Below are positions 3,946 through 39,722 of a stretch of DNA of 64,000 nucleotides, in pieces. The DNA is from Gemmatimonadota bacterium (GTDB lineage Bacteria > Gemmatimonadota > Gemmatimonadetes > Longimicrobiales > Gaopeijiaceae), in the NCBI GenBank assembly GCA_029863645.1, contig JAOTVA010000006.1, forward strand, positions 1 to 64,000, in the 5' to 3' direction. The position numbers and the translations under genes are program-made. Below the pieces are notes generated by a model. The model did not search any database and was not told where the DNA came from. It saw only the letters and a list, made by a program, of their open reading frames with translations. The stretch's first letter is position 1. The number at the start of each line of letters is the position of its first letter.

Positions 3946-5306
3946 GGTTCCCGACTCGCCGCTTCGCCCTGCTGCTCGCTGTTGGTGTTGCCGCATGCTC
4001 CGATGGCGTGGGGCCTGTTGGGGAGCCGGGGATCGGACTGCAGTTCTCGGTCGAGGTGCCCGCCGCCGTGTCGGCCGCCGAGACTACGGCGCTCGGGACG
4101 GCCTTCGATCAGGTCGACTCGTATCGAATCACCGTGAGGGACAGCGTCACGGGGTCGATCCTCAAGGCGGACACCATTCCCGTCGGCTCTGGACTCACCC
4201 AGCACAGATTCGACTTTGACCTGCCACCTTCGGCGGTGGGCCTGCGGGCGCGGATCAACGTCGTCGGCTTCGCCGGCGCCACTGAGATGTATCGCGCGAC
4301 TGCCGTCACCACGATCCGGGCGGTAACCGGTAGTGCGGCGTCGGTCGTGCTCGCGGTTCGGTACACGGGCCCGGGTTTGCGGGGCACGGTCACCGATGAC
4401 GCCGGAACCGGTCTCGATGGAGTGAGCGTAGGCCTCTATCAGGCGGCGAACCTCATCACGAGCGTCAATACCGAGCCTGATGGCACGTATCTGTTCTTGA
4501 ACGTGACTGCCGGGGCTTACTCGGTAGAACCGACTCCACCCCCGAGCCTGTTCGTGTGCCCGGTCGGTCGTAACGTGGACTTCCAGGCCAGCGAGGCACT
4601 CGTCGCGGACTTCGTGGCCAGTGTCGCACCGTGCGAAATCAATCTGCTCGTCCTCGCCGGGGGTGACTTCGACAACACGCGGACGGTCGCCGACATGTTC
4701 GCCAACACACCGGGCGTCATCACGGACAGGTTCTTCTTCGTCAGCCGGACCCCTGGCCTGAGCACGCTCAGGCAGTACGACGTGGTTCTGCTGTTCACCA
4801 ACGGCATCTTCGACGAGACATCGGTGCTCGGATCGGAGCTCGAGCAGTACGTACAGGTCGGCGGAAACCTCGTGATCGGCTCCTTCTACTATCAGGGTCG
4901 GAGCGATAGCGGGTTCGGCGTGCCGGGCTGGGGAGGACTCGAGAACGTCGATCCGTTCACAGGCGATGTGGACCCGTTCACAGGCCGTGCCGGCGCGACC
5001 TATGCCGCGAATTCGTTGGACGGCGGCAGTATCGTCGCGCACCCGCTGACCCTGGGCGTCGGATCGCTCACTTCAGTCAGTGGCTATAGCGCCGGTGTCC
5101 TAGCCAAGCCGACCGCGACGGTGGTCGCCTCGTGGACCGACGGCGCGCCGCTAATCGGATATCGGATTCTCGGTGGCGGGCAGCGCGTGGTCGGCGTGAG
5201 TCTCTTCCCGGCCGCGGCGGACCCCACTGAGGTAACGGGGGACGTGCAGGTACTCTGGGAGAACGCGATTACCTGGGCGGGCATCGCCGGGGGCCCCACG
5301 CCGTAG
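3942..5306 (+). CDS. Lipoprotein with carboxypeptidase-regulatory-like and GATase-like domains
   Basis: A 454-residue predicted lipoprotein, starting at a TTG (3942) that overlaps the barrel gene's stop. The lipobox is GVAAC at residues 16-20. Residues about 25-140 form a beta-rich domain; about 145-195 is a carboxypeptidase-regulatory-like (CNA-B type) module with GTVTDDAGTGLDGVSVGLY; about 230-450 resembles a class-I glutamine-amidotransferase-like fold (INLLVLAGGD, then QYDVVLLFTNG and VQVGGNLVIGSF) used as a non-catalytic module in many secreted proteins. I see no Cys-His-Glu catalytic triad. A 21-nt tandem duplication encodes VDPFTGD-VDPFTGR. It is probably a surface protein partnering the upstream barrel; function unknown. 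Confidence 0.65.
   Translation: MRFPTRRFALLLAVGVAACSDGVGPVGEPGIGLQFSVEVPAAVSAAETTALGTAFDQVDSYRITVRDSVTGSILKADTIPVGSGLTQHRFDFDLPPSAVGLRARINVVGFAGATEMYRATAVTTIRAVTGSAASVVLAVRYTGPGLRGTVTDDAGTGLDGVSVGLYQAANLITSVNTEPDGTYLFLNVTAGAYSVEPTPPPSLFVCPVGRNVDFQASEALVADFVASVAPCEINLLVLAGGDFDNTRTVADMFANTPGVITDRFFFVSRTPGLSTLRQYDVVLLFTNGIFDETSVLGSELEQYVQVGGNLVIGSFYYQGRSDSGFGVPGWGGLENVDPFTGDVDPFTGRAGATYAANSLDGGSIVAHPLTLGVGSLTSVSGYSAGVLAKPTATVVASWTDGAPLIGYRILGGGQRVVGVSLFPAAADPTEVTGDVQVLWENAITWAGIAGGPTP
4947..4988 (+). repeat. 21-nt tandem duplication within a lipoprotein gene
   Basis: Two adjacent 21-nt units (4947-4967 and 4968-4988) share GATCCGTTCACAGGC/GACCCGTTCACAGGC cores and encode VDPFTGD then VDPFTGR. 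The reading frame is preserved. It looks like a simple slippage duplication in a loop of the GATase-like domain. Confidence 0.7.
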
Positions 5307-5314
5307 ACCGGTCG

Positions 5315-5342
5315 GGCGCCGCTGGCCTAGGTCAGCGGCGCC
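5315..5342. terminator. Bidirectional hairpin between convergent genes
   Basis: A perfect 10-bp stem (GGCGCCGCTG at 5315-5324 with CAGCGGCGCC at 5333-5342) encloses an 8-nt loop. It sits between the convergent lipoprotein and thiolase genes and overlaps the last codons and the stop of the thiolase. No clear T-run follows, so it may need Rho or act only as a stability element. Confidence 0.5.
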
Positions 5343-6609
5343 GCTCGACCACCATCGCGAAGCCCATCCCGCCAGCGGCGCACACGGTGATGAGCCCGAA
5401 CTCGACGTCGCGTCTCGCCATCTCGTTCAGGATCGTGAGGGTGAGACGACCGCCCGTAGCTCCGAACGGGTGACCGATCGAGAGTGAGCCGCCCATGACG
5501 TTGATCACGTCGATGTCGGGATGCCCGACGGCCTCGCTGCGGCCCAACTCCTCCTCCGCGAACTTCTTGGACGAGAGCGCCTGAAGGTTGGACAGCACCT
5601 GGGCGGCGAACGCTTCGTGCATCTCCATGAGTCCGATGTCGCGCATGGTGAGGCCCGCCCGGTCAAGCGCAAGCGGGGCCGCGTAAGCCGGTCCCTGGAG
5701 GAGCTGACCCGCAGGATCGAGCGCGGTCCACGCCCAGCTGCGCACGTAGCCCATGGGCTCGATGCCCTCCGCCGCGGCCAGATCGTCTCGCATGAGCACG
5801 AGCGCGGACGCCCCGTCGGTCAGCGGGGAGGCATTCCCCGCTGTGACGGAGCCGTGTTTTCTGTCGAAGACCGGCCGGAGCATCTCGAGCTTCTCCGGCG
5901 TCGTGTCCATGCGGATGCCGTTGTCCTTGACGATGACCTTCTCGAAGTCTGGCGGCACGTAGACCGGAACGATCTCGGCGGTAAGGCGCCCGTCCTGGGT
6001 GCCGGCCGCTGCCAGCCGATGGGACCGCAGCGCCCAGTCGTCCTGTGCCTCCCGTGAGATTCCGTTTTCCTTGGCCATTCGCTCGGCGGACTCACCCATC
6101 GATTCACCGGTCGTAGGCTCGGCGATCGCCGGCTGCACAGGGATCAGGTCCCTGGGCCGCACAGCGCGAAATGGGGAGAGCTTCTGGCCGAGCGTCTTGC
6201 CCTTCGAAGCCGCGACCAGGCTCTTCGAGAGTACGTCACTCACCGTAATCGGGACGTGCGAGAGTGACTCGGCTCCCCCCGCCATGACCACGTCCGCCTG
6301 TCCGACCTCGATCATCTGGACCGCGTCAGTGATCGCCTGGTTCGCCGATGAGCAGGCTCGCGACACAGTGACCGCCGGAACGGTCTTCGGAAGCACAGCG
6401 AGCCCAACCTCGCGCGCAATGTTCGGAGCCTTGGGGTCGTGTACCACCGTGCCGAATACGAGCTGGTCGATGCGGTCTCCCTTCAGGCCGCTCCGGGCCA
6501 ATGCGTCGCGGACGGCGACCTTGCCGAGCTCGATGGCCGATAGGTCGGCGAACACGGTTCCCGACCGAGAGAATGGAGTTCGGCATCCTGCGACGATGGC
6601 GGTCTTCAT
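5332..6609 (-). CDS. fadI: Acetyl-CoA acyltransferase (3-ketoacyl-CoA thiolase, FadI type)
   Basis: A 425-residue thiolase that cleaves 3-ketoacyl-CoA to acetyl-CoA and a shortened acyl-CoA in beta-oxidation. All catalytic elements are visible: nucleophilic Cys86 in SRACSSANQ, the MHEAFAAQ His, the GHPFGATGGR motif (His380) and the acid/base Cys410 in CAAGGMG. The length and the loop between the catalytic halves fit FadI (about 436 residues in E. coli) better than shorter biosynthetic acetyltransferases. A partner FadJ-type multifunctional subunit is not in the window. The gene stands alone on the minus strand; its upstream end faces the membrane-protein gene at 6730, so the 120-nt gap should hold divergent promoters. 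Confidence 0.9.
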   Translation of the reverse strand: MKTAIVAGCRTPFSRSGTVFADLSAIELGKVAVRDALARSGLKGDRIDQLVFGTVVHDPKAPNIAREVGLAVLPKTVPAVTVSRACSSANQAITDAVQMIEVGQADVVMAGGAESLSHVPITVSDVLSKSLVAASKGKTLGQKLSPFRAVRPRDLIPVQPAIAEPTTGESMGESAERMAKENGISREAQDDWALRSHRLAAAGTQDGRLTAEIVPVYVPPDFEKVIVKDNGIRMDTTPEKLEMLRPVFDRKHGSVTAGNASPLTDGASALVLMRDDLAAAEGIEPMGYVRSWAWTALDPAGQLLQGPAYAAPLALDRAGLTMRDIGLMEMHEAFAAQVLSNLQALSSKKFAEEELGRSEAVGHPDIDVINVMGGSLSIGHPFGATGGRLTLTILNEMARRDVEFGLITVCAAGGMGFAMVVERRR

Positions 6610-6729
6610 GTCCTGAAACTCGCGACGGCTCAGCGGTGAATCAAACGGTCCCCTCGGTTGTGGCCCGCCCTCCGGCCGTCTACAGTGGCGCTTGGGACAT
6701 CGGCGGATTCAGGCGACGGAGGGGACGAC

Positions 6730-7176
6730 GTGGACTCGGGCCCGATCGAACCAGTCGATTCCTCAACTTCGGCGCCCGCCCATCGGTCGAGGTCCATCGC
6801 GCTGGCTGCAAGACTGGGAGCATGGGGCTTCGTCGCCGCACTCATCCCCCCATTCGCGCAAGCTCTGAACGGACCTCGGTGGCTCGCGGACTTGGCGGTC
6901 CTGAGTGCCGTGGGCTTGCTCACGAGCGGGATAGGGATCGCCGCCGCCTCCGTCCTGGTCATCCGGGCGCTTCCGTCCGGCCTCAGCCCGTTAAAGGTGG
7001 CCGCCGTCGTCGGGATTCCCTTCGGTGCCACGTTGTGCCTTGGTGGCATTGCCATCGTGGCACCCCTCAGTCGCTTTGCGGGCGTCGTCGATGCGGGCGG
7101 ACCTCTCGTGCTCCTCTTGGGTGTACTCGTCGTCGTGATGTTATTGATCGAATTCCTGCGCGGGAGGAAGGCTTGA
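6730..7176 (+). CDS. Small integral membrane protein
   Basis: A 148-residue protein of unknown function. I start it at the GTG at 6730 because a GGAGGGG ribosome-binding site ends 5 nt upstream; the frame is open further 5' but that part is compositionally unlike protein. After about 20 charged/serine-rich residues there are four hydrophobic segments (roughly 30-48, 55-78, 85-108 and 118-138), ending in a positively charged FLRGRKA tail. No family motif is recognised. Its stop overlaps the TTG start of the following DinB-like gene, so the two are translated together. Confidence 0.6.
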   Translation: MDSGPIEPVDSSTSAPAHRSRSIALAARLGAWGFVAALIPPFAQALNGPRWLADLAVLSAVGLLTSGIGIAAASVLVIRALPSGLSPLKVAAVVGIPFGATLCLGGIAIVAPLSRFAGVVDAGGPLVLLLGVLVVVMLLIEFLRGRKA

Positions 7177-7721
7177 GTAGCCCGAGGCACGCGATCGCTT
7201 CGATCGAGGGTGAGTACCGGCGCTACAGATCTTTGGGAGAAGGAGTGATCGATCAGCTCAGCCAAGAGGAGTTGGTCGTCCATGGATCGAGCGAGAGCCT
7301 CTCGATCGCCACCCTTGTCTGGCACATCTCCGGCAACCTCGAGTCGCGCTTCACCGACTTCCTCACGGCGGATGGTGAAAAGCCGTGGAGGCACCGCGAG
7401 ACGGAGTTCGAGGACCGCCAGGTGAGCCGTGACGCGCTAATCGACAAGTGGGACCGGGGTTGGGCCGTGCTTTTCGAGGCTCTCGATCCTCTCGTAGACG
7501 AAGACTTGGCCCGATCCATCACCATCCGTGACGTGCCTCTCACCATTGCCGAGGCGCTGCATCGGTCACTCGCGCATGCCAGCTACCACGTTGGGCAGAT
7601 GGCGTACATAGGAAAGATGCTGCGCGGTGAAGAGTGGCATTACCTGAGTATTCCGCCCGGCGGCTCGGCGGCGTACAACGCGAACCCCACGCTGGAGAAG
7701 GGGCTAGGCGGGGCGCGGTGA
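7173..7721 (+). CDS. DinB-like (DUF1572) four-helix metal-binding protein
   Basis: A 182-residue protein of the DinB/YfiT-like superfamily, four-helix bundles that bind a metal through three His; some act as thiol transferases, but most are uncharacterised. It starts at TTG 7173, inside the stop of the preceding gene and 4 nt after GGGAGGAAG. Visible features are the N-terminal YRRYRSLGEGVIDQL helix, the LVWHISGNLESRFTDFL segment supplying the first His, and the C-terminal SLAHASYHVGQMAYIGKML helix with the paired His typical of DUF1572. The length is normal for the family. The frame is open from 6501, but the upstream part overlaps two other genes and is not coding. Confidence 0.75.
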   Translation: MSSPRHAIASIEGEYRRYRSLGEGVIDQLSQEELVVHGSSESLSIATLVWHISGNLESRFTDFLTADGEKPWRHRETEFEDRQVSRDALIDKWDRGWAVLFEALDPLVDEDLARSITIRDVPLTIAEALHRSLAHASYHVGQMAYIGKMLRGEEWHYLSIPPGGSAAYNANPTLEKGLGGAR

Positions 7722-7829
7722 GGTGCGAGCCCTGGCCGGGCTCGCCTGTCGGATACTTGGAGGGCATCTTCGTCCGACCCGGGCACCGGGGGAGAGGGCG
7801 TGGGGAAGGAGAACGAGCGGAGGGGCTGC

Positions 7830-8339
7830 TTGAGCGAACAGATCGATCGCAAGGTCCAGCACGTCCAGATCGCGGAGTATCGCTATCGGCACGAGGCCGA
7901 GCTCGCCGCGGGCTTTCTGGCCGACGCGGGGATCCCGTTCTACCTCCAGACCGACGACGCTGGGGGGGCCGACTTGGGATTGTCCATGCTCCGCCCTTCG
8001 CTCCTGTGGGTGCGCGCGGTCGACGCGGAGTTGGCGCGAGACCTGGTCGCAGGGGATGAAGTGTCGCCGCAGGCCCGACCTCCCGCTCCCGCCAAGGTTC
8101 GGCGCGTAGCGCCGGCGTCCGAACCGCGCCTGACGATTTTGGAACGGGTGGTTGCGGGGGGACTCGCGGTAGCCCTGCTGGCCGTGGCTCCCAATCTGCC
8201 TCCCTCTCAGCTACAGCCATGGTTGGTGGCCCTCTGCTACATCTCGGGCTTTCTCCTCCTGGGTGCCGCGGCGCTCGGCCGCGCTTGGGGCGTGCTTGGC
8301 AACCTCATCAGGATGTTGTCCGGGAGTCCGCCACGATGA
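7830..8339 (+). CDS. DUF2007-like protein with two C-terminal membrane segments
   Basis: A protein of about 169 residues. The start is set at TTG 7830 because GCGGAGGGG lies 5 nt upstream; GTG 7800 is an alternative. Residues about 10-75 resemble the small DUF2007 (putative signal-transducing) module: an AEYRYRHEAELAAGFLADAGIPFYL strand-helix-strand followed by WVRAVDAELARDLV. In that family the module often sits in front of other domains. A proline/alanine linker leads to two hydrophobic segments (about 108-126 and 133-155). The function is unknown. It lies 13 nt upstream of the zinc dehydrogenase and may belong to that operon. Confidence 0.55.
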   Translation: MSEQIDRKVQHVQIAEYRYRHEAELAAGFLADAGIPFYLQTDDAGGADLGLSMLRPSLLWVRAVDAELARDLVAGDEVSPQARPPAPAKVRRVAPASEPRLTILERVVAGGLAVALLAVAPNLPPSQLQPWLVALCYISGFLLLGAAALGRAWGVLGNLIRMLSGSPPR

Positions 8340-32032: not shown

Positions 32033-34747
32033 TCAGCGCAGAGAATCGGCTGGCGGCGGGAGGGAGTCGTTCGACGCCGCCGGCGGTTCGGAGGGTTCAG
32101 GCGCGGGCGCCGCGGGTGGCGAAGCAATCGCTCCTGGCATGAACGCATGCCTGGGATCGACATATGCAGCCACCGAGTAGCTGAACACAGCCCGGTCGCT
32201 CATGGCGCTGACATCGGGAGCCAGATCATCTGGACGCTCGAAAGGGGCTGGTCCGAGGAGTTCACGTGGTCTCAACAAGTGCTCGACGATGTAGAGTCCG
32301 ATCGGGTCCGTCGCCGCCATGCGCAGCTGTAATACGATGCCTGCACTGTCGGGTTGGCCGATGTGTTCAGCCCACTCCAGGCGAGCCGGTTCTTCGATGT
32401 CCATCCCGTTGATGGAGAGCAGGCGCGTACGACCCGGCGGATCGAGGCGGAAGCGGATCGACTCGGCTCCCAGAATGGAGCGAACCGAGAGCGATACGTT
32501 CCGGACCGGCCCCTCGATGGAGTCGGACAAGATGGTCACCTGGGGAGGGGGAGCGCTCACCACACGTGCGTCGGTCACGGGCATGGGCCCGGCCGGGTAG
32601 CCGAAGTCGGACATGTCACGAGTCCGCGAAAACGACGACCCGGCGCCCGCCGCGGCCCATTCGATCGCCTCGGCATCCAGGACGGAGTCCGCCCCCGCGT
32701 TCGTGACCCAGAACGCGCTGCCGGTACCGTGCTGGTACGCGTAGATGAGTGTGCTCGGGGCGCGTCGATCGGCACTTGGTTGGGCAGACCGGACGGCCAT
32801 TCCGAAAAAACCAGCAGCCGCGACCAAGCCCGCTGTGGGCGCCCACCAAGAGTTTGGGTGGCGGAGTGCGTCCAAGGCGGGAAGACAGAGGTGGAGCGTC
32901 AGGGCCATGACGACCGCGAGCGGACCGATCAGCTGGATGGTCATGGCCAACCAGATCAGCTCCGTGAGCGGGACCAGGAGCGCGAGGACGGGAGTGGCGA
33001 GCGCCACGGTCAGGAGCCAACCCACTGCGCCCGACGCTCTCGCGCCGAGCAGGGCGACGAGTGTGCCGGCGAGGAGCGCTGCCGCGACGGGCCATTGCAG
33101 GTTCATGGCGGCGAGTGGAGCAACAAGGCTGAGCCACACCCCGAGCCCCAGAGGTACCATCACCGCTCCGAGCGACAGTTCCGCTGAAGAGAGCCACCGG
33201 CGAGCGATTCCATGGAGTGCCGTCACGATGAACAGCGTGCCGGCCGCGGCGGTCAGTACCCACCAGCCCTCACTGTGCAGGATCGACCCGGACAGGCTGC
33301 CGGCTTCAGGGTAGAACCCGAGAATCCACGTACGAAGCCAAAGTGCGAAGCCGAACGAGCCCGTCGCGCCAAGAAGCGCGAGCCCGAGGCCGGTCACGAC
33401 GCCCGACACGCGAGCGCCACGGACCCGTGCGGTGATCAGCGCGAGAAGGGCGAGTGCGAGAAGAGCGCCTGAAATGGGGACGACCCACGAACCCGGGTAC
33501 ACCACGAGGCCCGCCCCGGGCATCGTGAAGTAGACCACGTCCGGGCCGTCTACTGTCTGCAGGTCGGCGGCACCCAGATAGCGGAGTCCGGCGAGCGCGC
33601 GCAGGCCATGATGCTGAAGCGTGGCCTCGGAGAGGTTGTCGGGTCGGTCGGTCGATTGGTGGTAGACGTGGGCTCGGTCGATCGCCGCGAAGTTCAGCCC
33701 CTGCTTGCCTGCCTCCCGGAATTCGGTGAAGTCGGTGCCGTTCGGCATGCGCCGATAGACCTCGGACGACATCGAGTTTGCGAACGGGCGCGTGTCGAAC
33801 TCCTTCAGTGCGCGCACGATCCAACCGTTCTGCTCGTTCGTCTCGAACATGATAGAGGGCCCGCCGGCGCCCCTCATCTCGAACGAGAGCACCACCGAGA
33901 CGTCGTCGATCCACGGATGCTGATCGACGAAGGCCTGCGCACCACAGAGGCATGGCTCTTCGGCGTCACTAAAGAGGACGATCAGGTCATTGCTCAGCGG
34001 GGGCCCCGCCCGGAGCGCCCTGATCGCCTCGAGGATCGTGACCAGTCCGGAGCCGTCGTCCGCGGCTCCCGGCGAAAGCTCCCGGCTGTCGTAGTGCGCC
34101 GTGATGAGCACGGCGCCCGTCGAGGCGGTGCCCGGAATGCGGGCCAGAATGTTTCGCACGGTGACGGCGCGAGCGGAATCGGTCGTCTGCGCCATGGCCG
34201 AGGCGACCTGGACCTCGGGATCCATACCGAGGGCGCGGAGTCTATCCATGAGGAGCTCGCGGACCCGTGCGTGCTCTGGAGATCCTGTCGGATGCGGCTG
34301 CCGCGCGATCTCGATGAGCGTCGCCATAGCGCGGGCGGACGAGAACTGCGTGTCCGGAGCGTTGGCCGGTACCGGCCGGGGGATCCCGGTCCTGGTGCTT
34401 GCCACCACCGCCAGTCCGATCAGGATCGCCAGCGTGACCGGTCCCCTCCAGCGACTCCGCGGTCCTTCCGATACCCTCCGCGGAGGAGGCGTCCCCGCGG
34501 TTCCCGCGCCCTTTGGCTCTTCCTTGGCCGCAGCCGCGCCCCGGGCCGTACGCCGCGCCCGCCAACCCATGCCCGGCTTCTTCTGGGTTTTCGCGTCGGA
34601 TGGCGCGTCCCCAAGGAGCGCCAATAGCTCCTGGGCGCTGAGCTCCGGACCGTCGGCGGGAGCGTCCTCCTCGAGCGCCTTGCGGTCTTCGTCGGTGATG
34701 CCGAGCTCCTCGTCGGAGGGCAGCTCGGGAAGCCGAAAATCGCTCAT
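32033..34747 (-). CDS. Membrane-anchored M28 family metallopeptidase
   Basis: A 904-residue protein built like Fxna/ERMP1-type enzymes. Residues 1-100 are acidic then Lys/Arg-rich and probably cytoplasmic; one membrane helix lies at about 103-118. The M28 aminopeptidase domain follows (about 135-395) with all dizinc ligands visible: His218 in TAHYDSRE, Asp230 in GAADDGSG, Glu263-Glu264 in SDAEEP, Glu290 and His363 in VYHQSTD. Residues about 410-650 contain a series of hydrophobic helices, and a soluble beta-rich domain ends the protein. It lies 12 nt downstream of the AraC/PBP4 fusion gene on the same strand, suggesting one transcript with a cell-envelope theme. Confidence 0.85.
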   Translation of the reverse strand: MSDFRLPELPSDEELGITDEDRKALEEDAPADGPELSAQELLALLGDAPSDAKTQKKPGMGWRARRTARGAAAAKEEPKGAGTAGTPPPRRVSEGPRSRWRGPVTLAILIGLAVVASTRTGIPRPVPANAPDTQFSSARAMATLIEIARQPHPTGSPEHARVRELLMDRLRALGMDPEVQVASAMAQTTDSARAVTVRNILARIPGTASTGAVLITAHYDSRELSPGAADDGSGLVTILEAIRALRAGPPLSNDLIVLFSDAEEPCLCGAQAFVDQHPWIDDVSVVLSFEMRGAGGPSIMFETNEQNGWIVRALKEFDTRPFANSMSSEVYRRMPNGTDFTEFREAGKQGLNFAAIDRAHVYHQSTDRPDNLSEATLQHHGLRALAGLRYLGAADLQTVDGPDVVYFTMPGAGLVVYPGSWVVPISGALLALALLALITARVRGARVSGVVTGLGLALLGATGSFGFALWLRTWILGFYPEAGSLSGSILHSEGWWVLTAAAGTLFIVTALHGIARRWLSSAELSLGAVMVPLGLGVWLSLVAPLAAMNLQWPVAAALLAGTLVALLGARASGAVGWLLTVALATPVLALLVPLTELIWLAMTIQLIGPLAVVMALTLHLCLPALDALRHPNSWWAPTAGLVAAAGFFGMAVRSAQPSADRRAPSTLIYAYQHGTGSAFWVTNAGADSVLDAEAIEWAAAGAGSSFSRTRDMSDFGYPAGPMPVTDARVVSAPPPQVTILSDSIEGPVRNVSLSVRSILGAESIRFRLDPPGRTRLLSINGMDIEEPARLEWAEHIGQPDSAGIVLQLRMAATDPIGLYIVEHLLRPRELLGPAPFERPDDLAPDVSAMSDRAVFSYSVAAYVDPRHAFMPGAIASPPAAPAPEPSEPPAASNDSLPPPADSLR

Positions 34748-34759
34748 GGAGTGCCGCGC

Positions 34760-37021
34760 CTACCGCGCGAGCACGCGGACCACGCTGTCGATCGCGTCAC
34801 GCATTTCCTCGGCCGGGAGTCCGGAGCCGTTGGAGAGGATCGAGAAGATCACGTCAGTGCCGTCCTCCCGTACGAGATAACCTGACAAAGAGTTCACGTT
34901 CGAGATGGATCCGGTCTTGGCGAACACTCGACCCTCGAGGCCCGCGAGGCGTTCCTCGAGGGTCGAATCGAACTCGCCCGGCTCGGCCATCGCCGAGCGA
35001 TACGAAGCCGCGTCGTCCCGAGCGTCCATGTACCGCAGAACCCGCACGATCGCCCGTGGTGTTACCAAGTTGTACGCGGAGAGGCCGGAGCCGTCTCGCG
35101 CGGAGACGTCCAAGCTGTCGACGCCGACCTCTTCCATCAGGAAGCGCTGGATCACGGCGACGCCCTCCTCCCAGCTGCCCCGTTCACCGCGCTCTGCGCC
35201 CAGTGTCAGTGTGAGTTGTTCCGCCATCCAGTTCTGACTCGGTCCCAGGACACCAGCGACCAGTTCGGAGAGGGGAGGAGACTCGAGCACCGCCACGAGG
35301 CGAGCTCCTGGACATTCACGCATCTTACCCGCTTCGCACCCGGGTGCGATCGGCTCTCCTGCGCCCCACTTCACCTCCCAACCACCCTCGATGATGACGC
35401 CCGCGCGTTCGATCGCGTTCGAGAAGGCCGCTCCCGCCTGGCGGACAGGGTCGCGCTGGGCGAAGGCGAGTGTGTCGGTAGCTCCGAGCGCTACGTGGCC
35501 CTCCAGGACGAGTCGCTTCGTCTCTGGGAGGTACCTGGCCGTGACTCGGGTGCTGCTGTCTGACACGGTCGTCGTCACGGCCGACTGCACATACCCCGCC
35601 GTGCCTACGGGCGACCAACTGACCGCAGCCGGCGAACCGACCGAGGGTCCCGACACCGCGATGACTTCCAGCTCCCCTTCGGCGATGGCGAACGCACCCC
35701 CGGTCGACCCGTACGCGTAAGCCAGGTCCTCGACCTCGCGAGTCGGCGCGACAGTCGCAGAGTCCCACGCCGCAACGTCGACGATCAGCGATCCCGTCAC
35801 ATGTCCGGGCCCACGCGCGCGCAGGCTGTCGGCGAGCGCAGCCAGGGCCGCGGTGTCGTTGTCCCAGTACCGCGCCGACAGCGAGGGATCTCCTGAGCCG
35901 ATCAGCACGAGGTCGCCATCGAGGTGACTCGAGTCGAACGGCCCGGTGGCCCATACCTCGGTGCGAAAGCGGTAGTCCGGGCCCAGAAGGGACCACGCCG
36001 CCGCAGTCACCAAGATCTTCTGATTCGACGCCGGCACGAACCATTGCTGACTGTTTCTGGCGTAGAGAGTCCGACCGGAGCGTGCGTCCGCCGCGAGCAG
36101 ACCGAAGTGGGCCCTGTCCATGGGCGATGCCTCGAGCACCGCATCGATCGCGCCGCGGTCAACGCGGGGTCCACCGACACCGAACGTCGCACAGCCGGAG
36201 GCGATGACGGCCCCCAGCGCGATCGAGGCGAGCCTGCCGAGGTGCTTTCGCGGCCGTCCGCGCTCGTCGCGTTCCGTGAACAGGACGTCGCGGACGCGGT
36301 CCATTCCACCGTCGGCCGAGACTTCGCGCGGGGTGAGCCCCGTCTGCCGCTTCATTGCTCGCGCCAAGGACGTAGCAGTGGAGTACCCGAGCGAGAACGC
36401 GACCTCTTCCACCGTCCGACCGTCGCGACTGAGCCGCGCGCCCGCCAGCAGGAGCCGGCCCCAGAGGAGCACGCGCGTGGGTCCCGGGAAACCAGCTTCC
36501 TCGAGGGCCTGCCGCAGGGTCCGGGGCGTGTGTCCCAGCGCGGCCGCCAGCTTCTCTACGCTCGTGTCGTTGCCGGCGTTCTCGACGGCCCACTCGATGG
36601 CATCTGGCCCGGGCGCGGCGTAGCGGCCCCTCAGGACACGCGCGATCCGAGCGGCGCGTGCGGTAGCGAGCGCGTCGTCGATGATGGACCGAACTCTGGC
36701 GTGCTGGAGCGAACCCGAAGGCAATATTCCGTCGACACCGATCTCGCCGAGGTCGAAGTATCCCTGGCCGTGCTGGACTTCGATGCAGGCTATGATCGCC
36801 AGCCCGGGGAAGCGGTCACGCAGACCCGCGATCTCTCGAGTCGCCGCGTCGCGGCTCGGGTGCTCCGCATCGACCAGGCATCCGTCGCACGATTCGCGAG
36901 TCAGGAGTCGGCCCAGCTCGTTCCATGTCGGGCACACGACGACCGTGTGGTCGGCGCTCAAGGCTCCCGACAGCCGCGCCGCCACCCGTGTATCCGCCTG
37001 AAGAATCGCCAATACCGCCAA
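34760..37021 (-). CDS. AraC-type regulator fused to PBP4-like D-Ala-D-Ala carboxypeptidase (S13)
   Basis: A 753-residue protein in one uninterrupted frame from TTG 37021 (GGGAAAG upstream). Residues 1-120 resemble a response-regulator receiver, with Asp51 in CLVDAEHP at the usual phosphosite. Residues about 140-238 are an AraC DNA-binding domain with both helix-turn-helices (VEKLAAALGHTPRTLRQALE; VEEVAFSLGYSTATSLARAM). Residues 263-277 are a short hydrophobic segment ending in SGC, like a lipobox or membrane anchor. Residues about 285-753 are a penicillin-binding protein 4-type domain with all catalytic motifs: Ser332-x-x-Lys335, Ser595-Gln-Asn597 and Lys702-Thr-Gly704. A cytoplasmic regulator is thus joined to a periplasmic peptidoglycan enzyme. 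An internal ATG at 36304 could also yield a separate PBP4 lipoprotein. Confidence 0.8.
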   Translation of the reverse strand: MAVLAILQADTRVAARLSGALSADHTVVVCPTWNELGRLLTRESCDGCLVDAEHPSRDAATREIAGLRDRFPGLAIIACIEVQHGQGYFDLGEIGVDGILPSGSLQHARVRSIIDDALATARAARIARVLRGRYAAPGPDAIEWAVENAGNDTSVEKLAAALGHTPRTLRQALEEAGFPGPTRVLLWGRLLLAGARLSRDGRTVEEVAFSLGYSTATSLARAMKRQTGLTPREVSADGGMDRVRDVLFTERDERGRPRKHLGRLASIALGAVIASGCATFGVGGPRVDRGAIDAVLEASPMDRAHFGLLAADARSGRTLYARNSQQWFVPASNQKILVTAAAWSLLGPDYRFRTEVWATGPFDSSHLDGDLVLIGSGDPSLSARYWDNDTAALAALADSLRARGPGHVTGSLIVDVAAWDSATVAPTREVEDLAYAYGSTGGAFAIAEGELEVIAVSGPSVGSPAAVSWSPVGTAGYVQSAVTTTVSDSSTRVTARYLPETKRLVLEGHVALGATDTLAFAQRDPVRQAGAAFSNAIERAGVIIEGGWEVKWGAGEPIAPGCEAGKMRECPGARLVAVLESPPLSELVAGVLGPSQNWMAEQLTLTLGAERGERGSWEEGVAVIQRFLMEEVGVDSLDVSARDGSGLSAYNLVTPRAIVRVLRYMDARDDAASYRSAMAEPGEFDSTLEERLAGLEGRVFAKTGSISNVNSLSGYLVREDGTDVIFSILSNGSGLPAEEMRDAIDSVVRVLAR

Positions 37022-37142: not shown

Positions 37143-37466
37143 TTAGTCGAGCGCTTCCAACTTGACCGCGGTGCCGTAGCACAGCATTTCGGCCGCTCCT
37201 TGCATCACCTCGGAGGTCTGGAAGCGCACCACGACGACGGCGTCGGCACCGAGCGCCTGCGCTTCCTCGATCATGCGGTCGATCGCCTGTTCTCGAGCCT
37301 CAGCAAGCATTTTCGTGTATTCCTTCACCTCACCGCCGGCGATGTTGCGCAGGTGGGCGGCGATGTCGCTCCCTAGGTGCCTCGCGCGGACCGAACTCCC
37401 CCTGACCAACCCCAGCGTTTCCGTGATGCGACTGCCGAAGACGTCCGGCGAGGTGACCACGATCAT
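37143..37466 (-). CDS. YbjQ/UPF0145 family protein
   Basis: A 107-residue protein of the widespread YbjQ family, which forms homo-pentamers of unknown function. Diagnostic stretches are ETLGLVRGSSVRARHLG, EYTKMLAEAREQAIDRMIEE and GADAVVVVRF. ATG 37466 overlaps the stop of the anti-sigma gene (ATGA), so it is the third gene of the sigma-factor operon. Its presence there suggests an envelope or stress role, but this is inference. Confidence 0.85.
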   Translation of the reverse strand: MIVVTSPDVFGSRITETLGLVRGSSVRARHLGSDIAAHLRNIAGGEVKEYTKMLAEAREQAIDRMIEEAQALGADAVVVVRFQTSEVMQGAAEMLCYGTAVKLEALD

Positions 37467-37885
37467 CGGTGGACGTCCCGATACGGGTCGTTCTGCCACT
37501 CTCGGTAACGCTCCCAAATGACCGAGGCCAGCAAAGTCAGAATCCCGATGGCGATGGCGCCGGTCGCGAGCTTCTCCCAAGGATTAGTAGGCGCAGTTGC
37601 CAAGACGTAGGCGCCATAACTCGTCCAGGCGGTCGCGCCCATAGCCAAGAGGATCCACCCGATCGGGCGCGTGACTCGTTGGTTCACCCGGTCCCACACC
37701 GACTCTCGGTACTGGGCGGGGTGGAAGCTCAGCTGCTGGAAGTCGGACTTGAGTGCCCGGAAGATCGCGAGCTCGCGTCGCAGCTCGGTCGAGGCGGCCA
37801 ACTCGGCGTCTACCTTCGCGCGCTCCTCGGGCGCCATCTCGCCGTCGAGGTACCGCATGAGGTCGTCGGACGAGACCGGGGGCAT
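37463..37885 (-). CDS. Putative anti-sigma factor, two-helix membrane protein
   Basis: A 140-residue protein directly after the ECF sigma gene (start ATG 37885 sharing one base with its stop; GTG 37888 is an alternative). Residues 1-60 form an anti-sigma-like helical head: SSDDLMRYLDGEMAPEERAKVDAELAAS, as in the MucA/RsgI-type N-termini. The His-x3-Cys-x2-Cys zinc site of ZAS anti-sigma factors is absent. Two membrane segments follow (about 81-99 and 108-124), with a basic tail. It probably holds the sigma factor at the membrane until a signal releases it. Confidence 0.72.
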   Translation of the reverse strand: MPPVSSDDLMRYLDGEMAPEERAKVDAELAASTELRRELAIFRALKSDFQQLSFHPAQYRESVWDRVNQRVTRPIGWILLAMGATAWTSYGAYVLATAPTNPWEKLATGAIAIGILTLLASVIWERYREWQNDPYRDVHR

Positions 37886-38454
37886 CACTGGGGAAACTCC
37901 GGGTTCATCTCGACGAGCGCGTCGCGCAGTGCATGCCGGGCGTGGTACAGCCGGCTGGCGACGGTTCCTTCCGGAATCTCGAGGATCTGAGCGATCTCGG
38001 TGTAACGAAACCCTTCCAGCTCCTTGAGAACGAGAATCTCTCGGTGCTCCGTGCCGATGCGCTCCAGGCCTTGCCACAGCATCTCGCGGGCTGCGCTGCG
38101 CTCGTGGGAGCGCTCCGGGCCGCGCTCTCGATCGGCAGGCCTGTGGTCGAGCTTTTCGTCTAGTGCTTCCACTTTGAACTTCGCCTTTCGGCTGCGCAGC
38201 AAGTCACGGCATTGGTTCCGCAGAATCTGGAAGAACCAGGGGCCGAACGGCTTTTGCAGGTCGAACCGATGCAGGGTGTCGAATGTCTTGATGAACGCTT
38301 CTTGCAGCGCGTCCTCGGCGTCTTCGTTGTTTCCCATCATTGCTACGGCCAGCCGGAGGCCCGCCGGCTCGTAGGCCCGCACCAAGGGCTCGTAGAAGCG
38401 GGCATCCCCTGCCTTGCACTTCCGAATCAGTTGTCGCTCCAAGTCCGGCTGCAA
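37885..38454 (-). CDS. ECF-type RNA polymerase sigma factor
   Basis: A 189-residue sigma-70 family factor with regions 2 and 4 only. Region 2 shows YEPAGLRLAVAMMGNNEDAEDALQEAFIKTFDTLHRF and PFGPWFFQILRNQCRDLLR; region 4 shows HREILVLKELEGFRYTEIAQILEIPEGTVASRLYHARHAL. I moved the start from GTG 38475 to TTG 38454 because AAAGGA sits 6 nt before it and the shorter N-terminus fits the family. A TATAAG at 38514-38519 is a possible -10 element within the 65-nt gap upstream. The linker between regions is long and acidic/basic (EALDEKLDHRPADRERG). Target promoters are unknown. Confidence 0.9.
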   Translation of the reverse strand: MQPDLERQLIRKCKAGDARFYEPLVRAYEPAGLRLAVAMMGNNEDAEDALQEAFIKTFDTLHRFDLQKPFGPWFFQILRNQCRDLLRSRKAKFKVEALDEKLDHRPADRERGPERSHERSAAREMLWQGLERIGTEHREILVLKELEGFRYTEIAQILEIPEGTVASRLYHARHALRDALVEMNPEFPQ

Positions 38455-38540
38455 TCGTTGTCCTTTCAGAGCCACCTGTCGCGGACGACAGAAGCGCCGA
38501 CGGTGCTCTCGAGCTTATACGGGAGCGGCGGATGGTTTCT

Positions 38541-39722
38541 TCACGTTCGCAGGATGTCGCGCAGTGCGTCGATCACCTCGTCCACCTCGGCCTCCGAGTT
38601 GTAGTAGTGCGGGGAGATGCGCAGTGCGCCATCGACCCCCTTCTCTCCGTAGTCGATGACGGCGTCGATGGCGGTCTGAGACGACGTGTTGATCCCTCTC
38701 TCCCGGAGCGCTTGGCCCAGGGCGGCCGTCTGCCAACCAATGGCGGACACCGTAACCGTGGCGCCGAGCTCGCCGCCCCGGTCCAGCACCGTGACGCCCC
38801 CGATCTCGGCCAACCCGGTGCGAAGCATGGTTGCGAGGGTGCGCGCCCGATCACGAATCGACGCCAGGCCGATGTCGGTCGCGTATGAAGCTGCTGCGCC
38901 CATCCCTAGCACCAAGCCCCAGGCGAACTCCCAGGACTCGAAGCGACGTGCATCGGGCGCCGGCTGGTATAGATCCTCGGCGATCCAGTCGGCGCCACGC
39001 ATGTCCAGGAAGAGCGGCTCGAGATCGGAGGCCAGAATACGGTCCGACACGTACAGAAAGCCCACGCCCCTGGGTCCCCGCATGTACTTCCGCGCCGTCC
39101 CTGACAGGAAGTCGCAGCCGATCTGTTCGGCGTCGATAGGCATCTGCCCGACGGACTGGCACCCGTCCACCAGGTACAGTATGTCTCGCGCTCGACACAT
39201 CGCGCCGACGCTCGATACGTCCTGAATCAGTCCCGAGTTGCTCGGTGCGTGCGTCACGGCCACCAGCTTCGGACGCCTTCGATGGATGATGGCCTCCATG
39301 GAGTGGAGGTCCACCCCGCCCTCCGGGGCGTCCTCGGCCCGCACGACTTCCACGCCGTAGCGGTGCTGCAGCGAGAGATAGGCGATCTGGTTGGACACGT
39401 AGTCCGCGCGCGTGGTGGCGATGACGTCGCCCGGGTCGAGCTTGACCGAGGAAAGGGCTGCCGCGAACGCCGCGGTGGCGTGCGGCATGAACGCGACCTG
39501 TTCGGCCGTCGCGCCCAGCAGAGTGCCAAGCGCCGCCCGCGATGATTCGATGCGATCCCTGGCCTCGGCTTCGGCTTCGTAACCGCCGATCTCGATCTCT
39601 CGCTCGAAGTGGCCCATGAGCGCCTGCACGACGGGGCGCGGCATGAGCGAGGCGCCCGCGTTGTTCAGGTGGATCCGATGTTCGCAACCGGGCGTGTCGG
39701 CTCTTAGCGACGCGAGATCCAC
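38541..39722 (-). CDS. Class V aminotransferase-fold PLP enzyme
   Basis: A 393-residue fold-type I PLP enzyme. The PLP Lys lies in SGTARKYMRGPRGVGFLYV, the cofactor-binding Asp in YLVDGCQSVGQ and the His in AVTHAPSNSGLIQD; the N-terminus HRIHLNNAGASLMPRPVVQAL is the typical class V opening. It resembles isopenicillin-N-epimerase-like and EgtE-like enzymes rather than SufS, since no persulfide Cys loop is present. Reaction unknown. The start is GTG 39722 with GAGGA 8 nt upstream. It lies upstream of the sigma operon on the same strand. Confidence 0.78.
   Translation of the reverse strand: MDLASLRADTPGCEHRIHLNNAGASLMPRPVVQALMGHFEREIEIGGYEAEAEARDRIESSRAALGTLLGATAEQVAFMPHATAAFAAALSSVKLDPGDVIATTRADYVSNQIAYLSLQHRYGVEVVRAEDAPEGGVDLHSMEAIIHRRRPKLVAVTHAPSNSGLIQDVSSVGAMCRARDILYLVDGCQSVGQMPIDAEQIGCDFLSGTARKYMRGPRGVGFLYVSDRILASDLEPLFLDMRGADWIAEDLYQPAPDARRFESWEFAWGLVLGMGAAASYATDIGLASIRDRARTLATMLRTGLAEIGGVTVLDRGGELGATVTVSAIGWQTAALGQALRERGINTSSQTAIDAVIDYGEKGVDGALRISPHYYNSEAEVDEVIDALRDILRT

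Follow-up and report, generated by a model that had tools for sequence, protein, structure and literature searches.

Organization of the locus

The window, a 64,000-nucleotide stretch of DNA from a Gemmatimonadota bacterium, carries on its reverse strand a gene that joins an AraC-type regulator to a penicillin-binding enzyme of the PBP4 type, in the following surroundings. Genomes used for comparison are designated by numbers with the prefix G.

38518..38543 (-), promoter-like element of ECF type, TGAAGAA-N15-CGTA, ahead of the ECF gene
37885..38475 (-), gene for the ECF sigma factor, which opens the operon (profile match and synteny)
37463..37894 (-), anti-sigma-like membrane protein
37143..37580 (-), YbjQ-family protein (profile match and synteny)
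34760..37021 (-), AraC-PBP4 fusion gene, 753 codons, TTG start, stop included
36647..37021 (-), receiver-fold (pseudo-receiver) domain, residues 1-125 (AlphaFold and Foldseek)
36869..36871 (-), Asp51, receiver phospho-acceptor position (Glu in G135, Ala in G009)
36320..36550 (-), AraC/XylS DNA-binding domain (HTH_18), residues 158-234, with the strongest conservation in the protein (Pfam)
36242..36307 (-), basic linker, residues 239-260, loosely constrained; site of the AraC stop and PBP4 start in relatives whose two genes are separate
36302..36304 (-), internal ATG, codon 240 (ACG in G003, not ATG in G024 and G011)
36191..36241 (-), lipoprotein-type signal segment, residues 261-277, ending S-G-C277
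34766..36151 (-), PBP4-type D-Ala-D-Ala carboxypeptidase domain (Peptidase_S13), residues 291-752 (Pfam, TIGR00666, solved relatives)
36017..36028 (-), SxxK catalytic motif, residues 332-335, invariant
35231..35239 (-), SxN motif, residues 595-597, invariant
34910..34918 (-), KTG motif, residues 702-704, invariant
32033..34747 (-), membrane M28-type peptidase, next downstream, 12 bases past the fusion stop (synteny)

The longest open reading frame of the anti-sigma gene (37463-38077, reverse strand) overlaps the ECF gene, and since relatives align from about its residue 62, the true start is probably near 37894. The order class V aminotransferase, ECF sigma factor, anti-sigma, YbjQ, AraC, PBP4 is conserved, and the M28 peptidase is present in most close relatives. 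An ECF sigma/anti-sigma pair and an M28 peptidase had been named as neighbours in the original prediction and were found there, the YbjQ-family gene separating the fusion from the anti-sigma gene.

The motif TGAAG[AG]A-15 bases-CGTA was present upstream of the ECF gene with identical spacing in 10 of the 10 genomes read, and the exact 15-base-spaced pattern occurred a single time in the window's own genome, at this operon. By its sequence it looks like an ECF-type autoregulated promoter. Together with the conserved gene order it suggests that expression of the fusion is probably that of an operon controlled by the ECF sigma factor. A scan for an ECF regulon yielded few matches beyond the operon's own site, not clearly above the reversed control, and alignment of the DNA upstream of the fusion revealed no clear operator.

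The joined reading frame

The reading frame is uninterrupted over 753 amino acids, with no internal stops, and encodes a receiver-fold domain, an AraC/XylS DNA-binding domain, a lipoprotein-type signal ending at Cys277 and a PBP4/S13 enzyme, in this order. The same one-frame fusion was found in 11 other Gemmatimonadota genomes at 49-70% identity (G001, G002, G003 (same genus), G024, G121, G130, G135, G136, G011, G017 and G009). Two of these copies are shortened: about 65 residues are deleted between receiver and HTH in G017, and the HTH is deleted in G009, where receiver and PBP4 remain in frame. In the public collection, the copies that bear names come from Gemmatimonadota metagenome-assembled genomes of many projects.

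At a GC content of 65% a random stretch of 35 codons is free of stops 58% of the time, so that openness in a single genome would be weak evidence by itself; however, the joined frame recurs in twelve genomes from many assemblies at the identities given above, and it is kept although the length of the linker varies, which rules out an assembly error as its source and leaves a sequencing error, or a frame kept open by chance at this high GC content, with next to no probability. AraC-PBP4 is thus confirmed as a real gene fusion. The original prediction had proposed exactly this domain order in one frame and had advised a check for an assembly error; the order recurs in the relatives and the check was clean.

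Domains of the fusion protein

The first 125 residues of the window protein had no Pfam match, Response_reg included, and only 2 of 29 relatives matched Response_reg, the best with an E value of 0.024. AlphaFold on the 29 relatives modelled this region as a (beta-alpha)5 fold followed by the AraC helices, with a mean pLDDT of 90, and placed Asp51 where strand 3 ends. Foldseek matched it to receivers with TM-scores of up to 0.87 of the target, and also to AraC domains; a viral structure search with the domain added nothing. The remainder of the canonical phosphorylation set is incomplete: when active-site residues were assigned by strand order against a canonical receiver, not by structural superposition, the positions of the acidic pair after strand 1 were Q8 and A9, C79 lay near the Thr/Ser site after strand 4, and the lysine after strand 5 was absent. 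A receiver domain lacking any one of the five residues has been defined as a pseudo-receiver (PMC12632262). As the acidic pair and the lysine are absent, the modelled N-terminal domain is a pseudo-receiver by this definition, its identity as a receiver being one of fold only. Ordinary phosphorylation of the aspartate is therefore unlikely as judged from the sequence, and an ordinary phosphorylated receiver was rejected on the active-site residues.

HTH_18 was matched at residues 158-234 with 51.7 bits against a curated cut-off of 33.6 (E 1.1e-13), and it was found in 11 of the 12 fusions, the exception being G009. Between pairs of fused genes the dN/dS of the HTH was 0.03-0.16, the lowest or nearly the lowest among the parts, compared with 0.11-0.22 for the S13 domain, 0.14-0.37 for the receiver and 0.13-0.66 for the linker (NG86; some dS values are near saturation). 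These low ratios suggest that the DNA-binding part is very probably in use.

The enzyme part matched Peptidase_S13 with 277.6 bits (cut-off 22.8, E 2.2e-82) and the NCBIfam PBP4 equivalog TIGR00666 with 224.7 bits (cut-off 107.8). Its best solved relatives were DacC of B. subtilis (1w5d), the R39 carboxypeptidase (1w79) and PBP4 of E. coli (2ex2), with E values of 4e-39 to 5e-34. Ser332, Lys335, Ser595, Asn597, Lys702, Thr703 and Gly704 are invariant in all twelve fusions, and so is Cys277.

The earlier reading of the sequence, which had seen a receiver-like N-terminus with Asp51, an AraC DNA-binding domain, a short hydrophobic segment ending in SGC at position 277 and an enzyme with intact SxxK, SxN and KTG motifs, was accurate in each of these parts; the receiver-like call was correct by fold.

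The signal segment

In all twelve fusions a basic region is followed by a hydrophobic segment and the lipobox cysteine. The same segment forms the N-terminal signal of PBP4 in unfused relatives; in the fusion it lies internally, 260 residues into the chain. Given the invariant lipobox, lipidation at Cys277 and cleavage before it, between the two halves, are predicted from the sequence. The predicted distribution of the AraC part to the cytoplasm and of PBP4 to the periplasm, on which the original prediction relied, is supported as implied by the internal signal. For the complete chain AlphaFold gave a poor model (pLDDT 70, pTM 0.39; 12 sequences) that was uninformative on topology.

Origin of the fusion and loss of its halves

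In a tree of five proteins of the locus, with short rows for some taxa, all twelve fusions fell into one clade of 26 taxa (SH-aLRT 100; FastTree 1.000). Outside this clade, AraC and PBP4 were found as separate tandem genes in the same ECF-sigma/anti-sigma/YbjQ locus (G022, G033, G101, G102, G014, G008, G094 and G098). G022 is the nearest of these; its AraC gene ends with TGA, followed by two bases and the ATG of PBP4. None of the 26 taxa within the clade had both halves as separate genes. The seven changes of the fused state on the tree are compatible with one gain and six losses. Since all fusions lie in one supported clade with tandem genes outside it, the fusion most likely arose once. Relatives with a stop between separate AraC and PBP4 genes had been named at the outset as an observation that would speak against the fusion. 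Such relatives exist, but as they lie outside the fusion clade they date the fusion and do not refute it.

Within the clade PBP4 was left without its AraC half on at least five occasions (G004; G028/G122/G123; G134; G137; G127/G128/G129/G131/G138), and AraC without its PBP4 half on two (G132 and G133, both of which retain a second, distant S13 gene). The genomes of the clade are draft assemblies of varying completeness (the named ones metagenome-assembled), and some absences may be gaps; the losses cited here were read within continuous contigs. As either half was lost separately, each half is of value by itself. The AraC gene of G133 ends in a signal-like hydrophobic tail without the lipobox cysteine and with no PBP4 behind it (L066, 2980-3420), which can be taken as a remnant of the fusion. 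This protein is also a natural candidate for a tail-anchored AraC regulator. In G091 the HTH is reduced to a truncated relic that shares its frame with PBP4; here the ECF, anti-sigma and YbjQ genes are missing, and the relic-PBP4 gene directly follows the aminotransferase (L114, 4600-5080). In G129 the S13 gene was matched in two pieces with a break between query residues 238 and 259 (L126, 3409-5134), which may reflect disruption of the gene or a fault of the assembly.

No fusion was seen in other families among the matches listed from 395 genomes sampled across the phylum, and none outside the Gemmatimonadota among the best 78 loci of a search of genome contigs. The regulator family is nevertheless linked to S13 enzymes beyond the fusion. 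Contig C121 of G000 (L034) carries a second, distant AraC/pseudo-receiver gene (4962-5783, forward strand) convergent with a second S13 gene (6072-8024, reverse strand), whose product has a LysM-like C-terminus, and the convergent arrangement was also present in G002, G010, G014, G022, G024, G017 and G104.

Comparison with known systems

The catalytic domain and its motifs are like those of PBP4/DacB of family S13 (TIGR00666), whereas the lipoprotein-type signal and the AraC regulator fused before it set the fusion apart. YesN-type response regulators have an AraC output, and the DNA-binding domain of ToxR and CadC is an OmpR-type winged helix. With the former, and with pseudo-receiver regulators (PMC12632262), the fusion shares a receiver fold followed by an AraC domain; it differs in the absent acidic pair and lysine, in the variable Asp51 and in its C-terminal export signal and enzyme. 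Membrane-spanning regulators of the ToxR/CadC kind, with domains in the periplasm, are known (PMC7496328, PMC5936718), and HigX is an envelope-regulating membrane transcription factor (PMC13384398). In common with these proteins, the fusion has a DNA-binding domain predicted to be cytoplasmic, one predicted hydrophobic segment and a C-terminal domain predicted to be periplasmic, the topology of HigX being compared in outline. The domain order and hydrophobicity of the fusion match the ToxR/CadC layout, with a single span predicted from sequence, but its DNA-binding domain is of the AraC and not of the OmpR type, its hydrophobic segment ends in a lipobox, and a complete enzyme is predicted outside.

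In the rhizobial fbcH cytochrome b/c1 polyprotein, two neighbouring genes are fused in frame via an internal signal peptide and signal peptidase splits the product. This is the best mechanistic parallel for the fusion known to us, although the parts of fbcH belong to one respiratory complex, while the fusion joins a regulator to an enzyme across a predicted LspA site. The open-licence papers searched contained nothing relevant on an AraC-PBP4 fusion or on a polyprotein with a lipoprotein signal, and to this extent the architecture is, as originally suspected, not a described system.

Discussion

The reading preferred here, with a probability of about 0.5, is that the fusion product is a precursor, and that a cut at Cys277 separates the AraC regulator from a PBP4 that carries the lipid. 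The ribosome would make a single chain, of which the 255-residue pseudo-receiver/AraC part would remain in the cytoplasm. The internal lipoprotein signal (residues 261-276), preceded by basic residues, would insert with its N-terminus in and its C-terminus out, bringing the PBP4 part to the periplasm, where Lgt would lipidate Cys277 and LspA would cut before it. One product would be a lipid-anchored PBP4 acting as D-Ala-D-Ala carboxypeptidase/endopeptidase. The other, made in a 1:1 ratio, would be the AraC regulator, its hydrophobic tail either kept on the inner membrane or trimmed off, and its targets would be envelope genes of the operon driven by the ECF factor. The literature searched held no example of cleavage by LspA after an N-terminal region of 276 residues, and Cys277 may be retained by descent or for some other reason.

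The original prediction proposed an undivided sensor like ToxR/CadC: the protein would stay uncut across the inner membrane, and binding of peptidoglycan stems or beta-lactams by PBP4 would alter the activity of the cytoplasmic AraC domain. One frame does combine a DNA-binding part predicted to be cytoplasmic, a single hydrophobic segment and an intact enzyme predicted to be periplasmic; the AraC domain is strongly constrained and no re-split pairs occur in the clade. The related AraC genes that adjoin other S13 genes also point to linked functions, and loss of PBP4 is a known signal elsewhere, as inactivation of dacB in P. aeruginosa activates the CreBC system (PMC2654508). The invariant lipobox cysteine, however, predicts a cut between sensor and output, either half has been lost without the other, G009 retains receiver and PBP4 without an HTH, and the loosely constrained linker is unlike a signal-transmitting helix. 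The repeated losses and the invariant lipobox fit a precursor better than a permanent transmembrane sensor, and the undivided sensor is not supported as the likeliest reading and is regarded as unlikely.

A low probability was also assigned to two independent products, in which read-through would be incidental and PBP4 would come mainly from an ATG or GTG near codons 238-243. In all the fused genes an ATG or GTG lies 33-49 residues ahead of the cysteine, in some of them preceded by a GGAG-like stretch, and in G091 PBP4 must start internally, since the start of AraC is gone and a stop precedes the HTH relic. On the other hand, the ATG at codon 240, named in the original prediction as a possible second start, is not conserved, and was therefore rejected as proof of two products. 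At the ordinary position for a signal-peptide start, 12-30 residues before the cysteine, a start codon was found in 3 of 12 fusions compared with 16 of 20 unfused relatives (p 0.0035, indicative only, as related taxa are not independent). With such a start missing from nine of the twelve, PBP4 seems to depend on upstream translation in the fusions. Moreover, none of the 11 fusions that keep the HTH has a stop in the linker, where stops would be tolerated if internal starts sufficed.

As a point against the precursor, the persistence of the fusion may mean that the joined form matters, because an overlapping gene pair would suffice for mere co-production. It is conceivable, if somewhat doubtful, that the transcription factor is wired to the state of the cell wall or envelope through the attached PBP4, either by direct sensing of peptidoglycan or beta-lactams in an uncut chain or with LspA maturation itself as the signal; in the latter variant the AraC regulator would be set free or held back by export and lipidation of PBP4.

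A chain that stays whole would be a sensor leading directly from a penicillin-binding protein to DNA, with no kinase or protease between. If it is cut at the lipobox, one precursor would yield a regulator/enzyme pair and possibly a read-out of lipoprotein maturation. The family supplies natural controls, mostly in one operon context, in its fused, tandem, AraC-only, PBP4-only and HTH-less forms. The hybrid offers a natural test between a direct wall-to-DNA sensor and a precursor cut into two working parts.
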